A stretch of DNA of 64,000 nucleotides from positions 62,001-126,000 of the forward strand of contig OY101121.1 in assembly GCA_956465555.1 (NCBI GenBank), given 5' to 3'. The translations under genes were made by a program, and so were the position numbers. Source of the stretch: Nitzschia sp. pyKryTriq1. Taxonomy: Eukaryota; Bacillariophyta; Bacillariophyceae; Bacillariales; Bacillariaceae. The notes under the pieces were generated by a model. It did no database searches and had not been told where the DNA came from. It saw nothing but the letters and a program-made list of their open reading frames with translations. Positions 18,538 to 39,061 of this stretch are shown piece after piece. Numbering within the stretch: the stretch's first letter is position 1; each line of letters opens with the position of its first letter.

Positions 18538-18585
18538 CGAAAATCGATTCCAGATCTGCTCACAATTTCGGATCAGCTCGAAATC
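18538..18585 (+). promoter_or_regulatory. Upstream element shared with the galaxin-like gene
   Basis: The stretch containing AAATCGATTCCAGATCTGCT and ending ATTTCGGATCA recurs at about 37093-37129 and 37504-37541. Weaker similarity continues upstream for about 50 nt. It lies about 140 nt before the ATG of the secreted protein at 18723. Function as a promoter element is inferred from position and conservation only. Confidence 0.55.
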
Positions 18586-18620
18586 GCAATTCTACTACTG
18601 CGCTAAAAAATAAAATCATT

Positions 18621-18722: not shown

Positions 18723-19742
18723 ATGTTTTCTTTCAACAAGTTTGTGTTTGCGGCGCTCTTCCTCGCTGGTGGCGTCTCGGCCAACAAGAAGTCCACGACT
18801 ACTGAGCAGATTTTGCTCGAGAAGGTGGAAGAACTCGAGAGAAGGCTGGACGCCCTCTCCAGTAACAAAAAGAGGGGATCCTTAACCAACTCAGGTTCTG
18901 CCCATCGAAAGACCAGAGGTGAACTCAAAAAGGAAGCTTCCACCCAAAGTGGACCTTCCAATAGGCGTCTTGGTAAAGGCGGTAAGGGGGGGGTCGACTT
19001 TGGCACCGGTGGTATCTGCTACCAAGACGATCTGGTCACTCTTGCAAGCTTTGACCTTGACGAAACTGGTATTAACGGCGACTTAGATCGAGCCTCCCTT
19101 GAGTTCGGGCTCATCGATGTTGAGAAGGACCACTCGGTGACCATTGAGGTCAGCGCTACCACCCTGCTGGCAGTAGCTAAAGGAGGAGAAGTTGCTGATC
19201 CACTAGAATCGAGCGATGATACTTCTCAGGTCTACATTGTTGGAGCTGGGGTACTTGTTTACCCGATTCTTCAGTACTGTGGAGACTTCATTAAGCAATG
19301 TAAATCCTTGAAAACGAAAAAGACTGAGGAACAGGTCAACACCTGTGTTGTCGATGCCTGCCGCGCTTCCACGGATCCAACGTATGTGCGTGCTGTCAAG
19401 CCATCCCCTTTCCTCCCACTTGATGTTGCCGTGATTGGTGGCTACACTAGTAATGTGGATGGTGATCGTCGCTTGGAGCCAGATGTTTATTACGAGATTC
19501 TTGGACAGTTGGAGCTCTCCACGACGACTGTCAAGTTTTTTATTCCCGGCGACTCCCTTGAAGATGGGCCGTATCTCCTTGACATGGCCTTCGTTGCTGC
19601 CGTGTTAGGGACCAACGTAGACCTTGACAATCCGGAACTCGCAGACTGGCAGCTAGCCGGGGCTGTTCTTGGTCCCCATATGATTGAGGTCGAGACCACT
19701 GACACTTCCTATGAGGTGTGTGACTATGGGGTTGATGTGTAA
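18723..19742 (+). CDS. Secreted protein with N-terminal coiled coil, unknown family
   Basis: 339 residues from the ATG at 18723, chosen because it opens directly with a signal peptide (MFSFNKFVFAALFLAGGVSA); the frame is open upstream to 18414 without such a feature. Residues about 27-50 (EQILLEKVEELERRLDALSS) form a short coiled coil with heptad Leu. A basic linker follows, then a predicted globular region from about residue 97 (GGICYQDDLVTLASFDLDETG) with paired Cys (YCGDFIKQCKSL, NTCVVDACRAS) and alternating beta-type stretches (VYIVGAGVLVYPIL, DVAVIGGYTSN). I do not recognise the family. Its signal peptide closely resembles that of the galaxin-like gene at 37585, and both share an upstream element. 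A possible 5' UTR intron precedes the ATG. Confidence 0.7.
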   Translation: MFSFNKFVFAALFLAGGVSANKKSTTTEQILLEKVEELERRLDALSSNKKRGSLTNSGSAHRKTRGELKKEASTQSGPSNRRLGKGGKGGVDFGTGGICYQDDLVTLASFDLDETGINGDLDRASLEFGLIDVEKDHSVTIEVSATTLLAVAKGGEVADPLESSDDTSQVYIVGAGVLVYPILQYCGDFIKQCKSLKTKKTEEQVNTCVVDACRASTDPTYVRAVKPSPFLPLDVAVIGGYTSNVDGDRRLEPDVYYEILGQLELSTTTVKFFIPGDSLEDGPYLLDMAFVAAVLGTNVDLDNPELADWQLAGAVLGPHMIEVETTDTSYEVCDYGVDV

Positions 19743-36775: not shown

Positions 36776-37129
36776 TACGGCGAGAAGAATGCGAACAATG
36801 TAAGGCTTGAAACGCCGCTTTTTCTTCAAGTAGAAGAGATCCCTAGTATCTGAACTAGTACCTGAATTGCGAATAGCGCTCAAGCTATATGCCCAGAGAT
36901 GGTAATGATGATGTGGCGGGATGTAGAACATTCACTACGATTGGAATCTTGTGGAGTACACAAGCCCAAAAAGTTAAAAAACACGCATGGTCATCTTGAC
37001 CCATGCTTGGATGTGTCCATTTCTACGGGTCGCGTGTCGATTTTGTACTACCCCGCAGTTCAGGTGATGTTTTGTCCAAGTTTTCGGATGGGAGAAAATC
37101 GATTCCAGATCTGCTCAGACAATTTCGGA
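36776..37129 (+). repeat. 354-bp direct repeat, copy A
   Basis: Nearly identical to 37186-37539 (only a handful of mismatches seen), period 410 nt. It runs from GAGAAGAATGCGAACAATGT to the element with CGATTCCAGATCTGCTCA and TTTCGGA. Its frames do not look like a real protein. The copies sit head-to-tail upstream of the galaxin-like gene. Confidence 0.9.
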
Positions 37130-37185: not shown

Positions 37186-37539
37186 TACGGAGAGAAGAAT
37201 GCGAACAATGTAAGGCTTGAAACGCCGCTTTTTCTTCAAGTAGAAGAGATCCCTAGTATCTGAACTAGTACCTGAATTGCGAATAGCGCTCAAGCTATAT
37301 GCCCAGAGATGGTAATGATGATGTGGCGGGATGTAGAACATTCACTACGATTGGAATCTTGTGGAGTACACAAGCCCAAAAAGATAAAAAACACGCATGG
37401 TCATCTTGACCCATGCTTGGATGTGTCCATTTCTACGGGTCGCGTGTCGATTTTGTACTACCCCGCAGTTCAGGTGATGTTTTGTCCAAGTTTTGGGATG
37501 GAAGAAAATCGATTCCAGATCTGCTCACACAATTTCGGA
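37186..37539 (+). repeat. 354-bp direct repeat, copy B, adjoining the galaxin-like gene
   Basis: Second copy. It ends 45 nt before the ATG at 37585, so it probably holds the core promoter of that gene. Its terminal element also lies upstream of the secreted-protein gene at 18723. Confidence 0.9.
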
Positions 37540-37584
37540 TCATCAAAAACGCAAACTGTATACTTTTCTTGATTCATCGTCGTC

Positions 37585-39061
37585 ATGAAGTTCAGTATCG
37601 GATCTGTTTTTCTTGCTTGCTTTCTTGCTGGTGGAGTTGAATCCTCCATCGGAACTAAAGGAAACCCCAAGGTACATCAAGTGGAACGTCTACTTTACCG
37701 CCGTATACATTATTTACCTTTGGACGACTCACACAATCGGGTGCTGGCTCTCGATCGTACTGCAGGATGCATCTACGAAAGGCAGTCGTCGCTTCTTGAG
37801 GCCTGCGAATGACGACTTCTGTAGCACTTACCCGGTGATTCCGATTGGGGGGAGTAACTTCTATGACACTGAAGGAGCTACCGCCGAGATAGGTGAGCCG
37901 TCGCCAGGGGCAGGAACAGGAACAGGAGAAGAATTCTCTAGTTGCGAGAGCCTGGATGGTTGGTGCGATGGCGAAACGGATGTGGAAAACTCAGTTTGGT
38001 TTGGTCTGGATGCGCCAGATGGAGTTACGTCTGTGACGATTGAGATCTCCGGCGATGGGGATGCTCAAATGGCCCTTTGGGAAATCGACATTTCCAAACC
38101 TTGCAGCATTGTCAACGGTATCATACGCGAGATTGCCGCAAACGACGATAGTGGCTCTAAATTTTCGCCCCTCATTAAGTGCGCTCCTGTTACCCCGGGA
38201 GCTGCATACTCTATACAGGTGGATGGGTTCGATGGAAGCGCCAGTTCAGGTGAAATCCGAATCACCGAATGCTTTGACAGCTGCTCCTTAGGCTACAAGC
38301 AATGCGGCTATCAAATTTACGACTCTACTGCCGATAATATCTGCTGTGATGGAGTGCTCTATGAGGGTACAACTCACGACGCCTGTTGTGGAACTGAGTC
38401 TTACGACTCAAGTTCTACCGATATCTGCTGCGAGGGAGTGCTCACTCAGGGTACATCGGACAACGCCTGTTGTGGAACTGAGTCTTACGACTCTACAAGT
38501 GATATCTGCTGCGAGGGAGTGCTCACTCAGGGTACATCGGACGACGCCTGTTGTGGAACTGAGTCTTACAACTCTGAAAGTGGTACCGATATCTGCTGTG
38601 GTATCGTGCTCAAGCGGGATATAACTGCTGGCGCTTTTGACTGCTGCGGTTTTCTTATCATACCAACCGGCACAGCGATGTCTTGCTGCGATGGTACCCC
38701 ATTTGTTGACACCTGCCAAACGTGCTGCGAAGGTTCCATCGTTGATGGGACTGTATGCCCCCCCCCAACTTGCCCTCCCGACAGTGGACTAGAGGGTGAA
38801 ATATGCGCCGACGGCAAGAATTTTGTCTGTGTCTACAAGGAGGGCGACGCCTTTCTCAAGCAAAAGTGTGTGGACGAAGAAAAGTTGGCCGGAAAGCCTC
38901 CAGGCAGCAGTGAACCCTACGACGGTGACTATTACTTGGTAGGATGCAACTGTTGCCCTGATTCCGCTGTGGTTCCAGGCTATGGCTCCAAGAGCTTTGA
39001 CGGCAAATTTGGTGGTGGCAGGTCCGTCAAAGACGACCCCGCTTTTGGTCTTTGCGCGTAA
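37585..39061 (+). CDS. Secreted galaxin-like dicysteine-repeat protein, two exons
   Basis: Model: exons 37585-37671 and 37766-39061 (460 residues); donor GTACAT at 37672, acceptor CTGCAG at 37765, phase 0. Signal peptide MKFSIGSVFLACFLAGGVES. Residues about 88-200 form a beta-sandwich-like domain (SVWFGLDAPDGVTSVTIEIS, AQMALWEID, AANDDSG, AYSIQVDGF), similar to secreted pre-peptidase-C-like modules. Residues about 197-340 hold four to five repeats of about 26 residues with paired cysteines (DICCEGVLTQGTSDNACCGT then ESYDS), the pattern of galaxin, a coral skeletal-matrix protein. A further Cys-rich tail (CCEGSIVDGTVCPPPTCPPD, GCNCCPDSAVVPG) follows. Two repeat units are almost identical in DNA, pointing to recent internal duplication. 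A disulfide-rich extracellular or wall-associated role is inferred. Confidence 0.8.

Follow-up and report, generated by a model that had tools for sequence, protein, structure and literature searches.

In a 64,000-nucleotide stretch of contig OY101121.1 of the diatom Nitzschia sp. pyKryTriq1, here called the window, a gene for a cysteine-rich protein with galaxin-type repeats extends from position 37585 to 39061 on the plus strand. As read from the window sequence, it has one inferred intron and a product of 460 amino acids (Table 1). Translation from the ATG at 37585 gives a hydrophobic N-terminus resembling a signal peptide, and the intron was inferred because splicing preserves the frame and attaches this signal peptide to exon 2. 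The TTG at 37613, where the open reading frame starts when called mechanically, was not accepted as the gene start; the ATG with the 94-bp intron was preferred. The codon usage of exon 2 (r 0.77) compares with values of 0.72 to 0.92 for 12 other genes of the window. As codon usage was ordinary, the gene bears an intron and the contig has a length of 2.5 Mb, contamination or a very recent transfer was rejected. The mature chain is acidic, with 71 Asp and Glu versus 24 Lys and Arg residues, and the computed pI of the protein was 4.05, which is probably the floor of the routine used for the calculation. Cysteine makes up 8.6% of the whole protein.

Table 1. Positions in the window of the galaxin-repeat gene and the parts of its product
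Feature	Position	Strand	Remarks
Exon 1	37585..37671	+	contains the start codon; apparent signal peptide (MKFSIGSVFLACFLAGGVESS...) read by eye; 29 codons, phase 0
Inferred intron	37672..37765	+	GT...AG, 94 bp; frame kept, signal peptide joined to exon 2
Exon 2 through stop codon	37766..39061	+	open frame; codon usage r 0.77
RFL, RXL-type site, aa 38-40	37790..37798	+	after the signal peptide
N-terminal region, aa 41-201	37799..38281	+	without family match
Galaxin-repeat region, aa 202-357, ten CC pairs	38282..38749	+	PF24748, 76.1 bits; hairpins in model
Repeat unit 1, 28 aa	38339..38422	+	84 bp
Repeat unit 2, 27 aa	38423..38503	+	81 bp
Repeat unit 3, 29 aa	38504..38590	+	87 bp; 70/72 bases shared with unit 2
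Degenerate units, four more CC pairs	38591..38749	+
C-terminal Cys module, aa 365-459	38771..39055	+	46% identity to a tandem pair of modules in an M12B-like metallopeptidase

The host genome comprises 40.65 Mb in 20 contigs. Eight silicon-transporter matches in it exceed the Pfam cut-off; seven of these score 873 to 885 bits. A diatom host is therefore the natural reading, and the silica-forming alga assumed in the preliminary description is supported. Just upstream of the gene lies a 354-bp direct duplication (36776-37129 and 37186-37539, 98.6% identical). A block of ~50 bp at 37504-37554, also upstream of the gene, recurs at 18539-18589, where it precedes a further signal-peptide-like gene (18723-19742). 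When 2 mismatches were allowed, the core of the block, ATCGATTCCAGATCTGCTCA, was found at 3 sites of the 40.65-Mb genome, all inside the window; the block is possibly a shared promoter element.

The dicysteine array and its assignment to the galaxin family

Repeats of about 26 residues with paired cysteines had initially been reported at 38268 to 38700. The open frame does encode the repeat peptide at this location and each unit carries two CC pairs, but the three clear units are longer (28, 27, and 29 residues), and the array reaches past 38700 to include ten CC pairs at residues 222 to 350. These pairs start at residues 222, 236, 250, 264, 277, 291, 306, 322, 336, and 349, i.e. 13 to 16 apart, with 11 to 14 residues between pairs. 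A single cysteine precedes the first pair by 13 residues (Cys 209) and another follows the start of the last pair by 11 (Cys 360). Two extra residues, Cys 202 and Cys 346, have no place in a simple ladder, and an eleventh CC, at residue 425, sits in the tail outside the array. The clustering is above chance: against the ten CC pairs in residues 202 to 357, shuffled sequences had a mean of 2.86, and none of 20,000 shuffles reached ten. Cysteine accounts for 14.7% of the repeat region, which has 25 Asp and Glu versus 3 Lys and Arg residues, only 2 of them Lys.

Of the 72 compared bases, 2 are different between units 2 and 3, and both changes replace an amino acid; unit 1 differs from each of these units at 10 of 72 bases. 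The latest duplication is therefore recent at the DNA level, which bears out the earlier proposal of an array evolving by duplication.

When 429 residues of exon 2 were searched against Pfam, PF24748 (Galaxin_repeat) was the sole match at E values up to 10 (68.9 bits, E 5.1e-19), and no rival cysteine-rich family was assigned. The repeats alone gave 76.1 bits, the curated cut-off being 28 bits. Four of four shuffled sequences with fixed Cys positions stayed below this cut-off (18.6 to 23.7 bits), the reversed repeat sequence gave 9.9 bits, and two full shuffles gave no score. Both shuffles in which Cys and Gly were fixed, however, exceeded it, with 37.7 and 45.6 bits. The cut-off is therefore lenient for such sequences and proves little alone, and part of the PF24748 match reflects composition. 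The real repeats lie ~30 bits above the Cys-Gly shuffles, owing to other shared positions such as ACCGTxxYD. This core is common to the diatom repeats and a fragment of the mussel shell matrix protein cysrichin, which we rebuilt from the text of PMC10045328 and used as a positive control (68.8 bits). Cysrichin has PACCGT and AYDxxxxMCC units, as does the diatom protein, and in the rebuilt fragment the CC spacing alternates between 15 and 13, compared to 13 to 16 in the diatom. It differs in being basic (pI 8.15), has a mass of 17.5 kDa, and is expressed in mantle and gill (PMC10045328).

Coral galaxins (Galaxea, Acropora; PF24748, PANTHER PTHR34490) are extracellular, as is predicted for the diatom protein, and like it they are acidic, with tandem units of ~30 residues containing two CC each; their pI is about 4.5 and their overall Cys content 12.4 to 13.4% (PMC2726143). 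Compared by description, the diatom protein differs from them in having further regions on either side of the array, one N-terminal and the other a C-terminal module, and in its silica-forming host. Galaxins and the calcarins of calcareous sponges have been described with 10 to 23 dicysteines spaced 10 to 15 residues apart and a single Cys at a similar distance on both sides; each CC opens a short hairpin and bonds to the preceding CC (PMC12419799). The diatom array follows the same cysteine pattern, with ten CC pairs capped by Cys 209 and Cys 360 and the extra Cys 202 and Cys 346 nearby. Unlike the diatom protein, calcarins are described in PMC12419799 as mostly devoid of other domains and of a detailed repeat motif.

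The fold of the repeats was modeled with AlphaFold; the input alignment had nine rows, which were overlapping pieces of three source proteins, the window protein and two bacterial proteins, L020 and L022 (see below). The best of five models had a mean pLDDT of 74.3 and a pTM of 0.49; the other four had pLDDT values of 63.0 to 65.4. Ten hairpins are seen in the best model, each with a turn of two residues; nine of them begin at a CC, the tenth at Cys 209. Nine of the ten CC pairs thus open a short beta-hairpin, as in galaxins and calcarins; the pair 250-251, which adjoins a low-confidence stretch, has none in this model, which resembles the hairpin ladder modeled for calcarins. None of 14 Foldseek matches to solved structures reached E<=0.001, the PDB matches being at chance level, and a sequence search for a similar solved structure found none. 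The disulfide pairs of the diatom ladder would follow the published galaxin model by analogy. An older view, drawn from peptide work that PMC2726143 cites and repeated in PMC10045328, is that the two Cys of a CC may bond to each other in a cyclo-cystine loop; few cross-links would then be left.

The family match with its controls, the cysteine spacing, and the hairpin model all agree with the galaxin likeness proposed in the preliminary description, and the repeats very probably belong to the galaxin family. The diatom protein is a new member of this family in an unexpected host.

Distribution and origin of the repeats

In the 40.65-Mb genome only this one galaxin locus was found. Control genomes gave no match in this search, whereas in three other profile searches the control genome of Bacteroides ihuae exceeded the cut-off for Galaxin_repeat; in one search it had a Silic_transp match below the cut-off. 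A DNA pattern scan of a genome-contig collection returned seven loci, two of which were galaxin-like by Pfam: L020 (uncultured bacterium bin-0333, 168 bits to PF24748) and L022 (a Phycisphaerae MAG, 107.7 bits). The other five were judged by eye to be chance matches, and an alignment scan of the same collection gave 15 stretches, none of them confirmed. As in the diatom protein, a single Cys precedes the first CC in both bacterial proteins; their CC pairs, unlike those of the diatom, are mostly about 13 apart and number 30 and 14, respectively, in the scanned stretches. The occurrence among related bacteria was patchy: in a phylum sample around the L022 genome, 2 of 294 genomes scored above the cut-off, namely the L022 genome itself and one with 29.1 bits and an internal stop, and in a class sample around the L020 genome, 1 of 384 did so, the L020 genome itself.

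Matches obtained by tblastn on Sinorhizobium plasmids (4 records, E down to 4e-6) were rejected, since in the two examined (L011 and L012) a long frame of OmpA type occupies the strand opposite to the match; only L012 carries the OmpA annotation. Phage records contained no match to the diatom repeats. Among viral contigs, a protein pattern scan gave 0 matches, two alignment scans gave 9 and 99 stretches, none confirmed, and 16 loci picked out by a fixed-gap DNA pattern were assessed by eye from their translations. One contig of the viral collection, L039, contains a 1175-residue frame with 41 CC pairs and 179 Cys residues.

The diatom repeats gave similar pairwise scores with the mollusc sequence, which is a fragment only, and with the two bacterial proteins. 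Given these scores and the bacterial occurrence, shared descent with coral galaxin is possible, and PMC12419799 allows for a common as well as for multiple convergent origins of such repeats. If CC-hairpin ladders are easy to evolve, the diatom array could have arisen convergently by local duplication, an origin compatible with any function. The recent duplication of a unit, the Cys-Gly shuffles above the PF24748 cut-off, and the single locus in the genome together with the patchy bacterial occurrence are in line with such an origin. The ~30 bits contributed by other shared positions, such as ACCGTxxYD, argue against it, and we consider convergence possible but rather doubtful.

The N-terminal region and the C-terminal module

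The N-terminal region had been described as a beta-sandwich, which was not confirmed. Residues 41 to 201 had no match in Pfam, NCBIfam, or PDB sequences, leaving a PPC-like beta-sandwich unsupported, and within the diatom's own genome they matched only themselves and one further place at E 0.82. A single-sequence fold of 429 exon 2 residues was discarded because of its pLDDT of 33.7.

The Cys-rich tail, in contrast, was confirmed, with 9 Cys in 103 residues, and it resembles modules of another protein of the same genome. Residues 365 to 459 share 46% identity with two tandem modules that close a frame of 780 residues at 726-727 kb of contig C7. Other features of this frame are repeats rich in PS (Pfam PT, 123.3 bits) and the M12B-like zinc motif HEIGHNMGCHH; its score to Reprolysin_5 (21.3 bits) is below the cut-off of 27. 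A second copy of the metallopeptidase gene is located at 740 kb of C7. At E values up to 1, the tail module was found at five places of the genome; the galaxin-repeat gene accounts for one of them and the two peptidase copies for the other four. The type of protein, together with a hydrophobic start in the frame upstream, suggests that the metallopeptidase is secreted.

The metallopeptidase gene lies in an 8.9-kb stretch that is present twice, with 100% identity and 13.6 kb apart (L009 1-8897 and L010 105-9001, corresponding to about 722.5-731.4 kb and 736.1-745.0 kb of C7). The duplicate reaches an end of each examined locus and may be longer; it represents either a very recent duplication or an assembly artefact. 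In the parts of the literature accessible to us, no published parallel was found for galaxin repeats combined with partner regions of these kinds.

Possible functions of the galaxin-repeat protein

From these features the following mechanism can be proposed. The signal peptide would route the protein into the secretory pathway, where short beta-hairpins may form in a row at the ten CC pairs, each pair being linked through its first Cys to the second Cys of the preceding pair. With Cys 209 and Cys 360 closing the ladder, a stiff, acidic, and protease-resistant rod would result, keeping the N-terminal domain apart from the C-terminal module shared with the metallopeptidase. This module probably docks both proteins at the same extracellular place. 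The most likely role would be that of a spacer, structural or adhesive, within the matrix of the cell wall or the mucilage; we give the statement as a whole, a secreted, disulfide-laddered spacer with a docking tail, about an even chance. A structural role was also suggested for coral galaxins, and Gfgalaxin was cited as not binding calcium (PMC2726143).

The preliminary description had considered a link to the wall or a biomineral matrix. The silica-forming host with its eight silicon-transporter matches agrees with this, but a mineral link is unproven: galaxin-like proteins are also found in species without skeletons (PMC12419799) and the repeats occur in bacteria, so that the repeats alone imply no mineral. 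In its explicit form, the protein would pass through the silica deposition vesicle, lose an RXL propeptide, and be built into or onto the silica of the frustule, as coral galaxin is in carbonate. The diatom silica vesicle protein Silicanin-1 offers a precedent, as it has a signal peptide, an RXL site (RRL), and a Cys-rich luminal part with 18 Cys, all in disulfides, and its RXL domain was called typical of many biosilica-associated proteins (PMC5525289). In the window protein, likewise, the apparent signal peptide precedes a short segment that ends with RFL, and galaxin relatives are present in coral and sponge minerals (PMC12419799). In contrast to the diatom galaxin protein, Silicanin-1 is membrane-anchored and NQ-rich, and galaxin repeats are unmentioned in the accessible part of PMC5525289. 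An RXL motif was present in 19% (1330 of 6950) of 39-residue windows of 12 proteins of the window, although in only 7% of shuffles of residues 22 to 60. The repeat region contains only 2 Lys, and the pentalysine cluster, defined as 5 Lys in 12 to 14 residues (PMC9650480), is absent, the maximum being 4 Lys per 14 residues, in the tail. With RXL at background and no pentalysine cluster, we preferred the spacer and regard the incorporation into wall silica as a minority reading that is unlikely.

The repeats are very acidic, whereas most antimicrobial peptides are cationic. We consider it highly improbable that the protein serves in surface-layer defence, as an antimicrobial like the squid galaxin, which is listed among the antimicrobials of the surface mucus (PMC8547416).

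The occurrence of the repeats in one diatom and two bacterial records adds to their known distribution and cautions against taking galaxin homology as evidence of biomineralization. The PANTHER family has been noted in 'other eukaryotes and archaeans' (PMC12419799), and diatom members may therefore already sit unremarked in databases.

Besides the preferred spacer, a more far-reaching reading can be formulated, which we consider quite improbable. The galaxin ladder would be a matrix scaffold of the silica wall: diatoms would have recruited for silica the same architecture that corals, sponges, and molluscs recruited for carbonate. The fused diatom docking module would also deliver a matrix metallopeptidase to the wall. 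Diatoms include transformable species. GFP fusions have been shown in Thalassiosira (PMC9650480). If the protein is located in the wall, it would become possible to test if galaxin ladders generally act as scaffolds of mineral matrices or are merely tough extracellular spacers.
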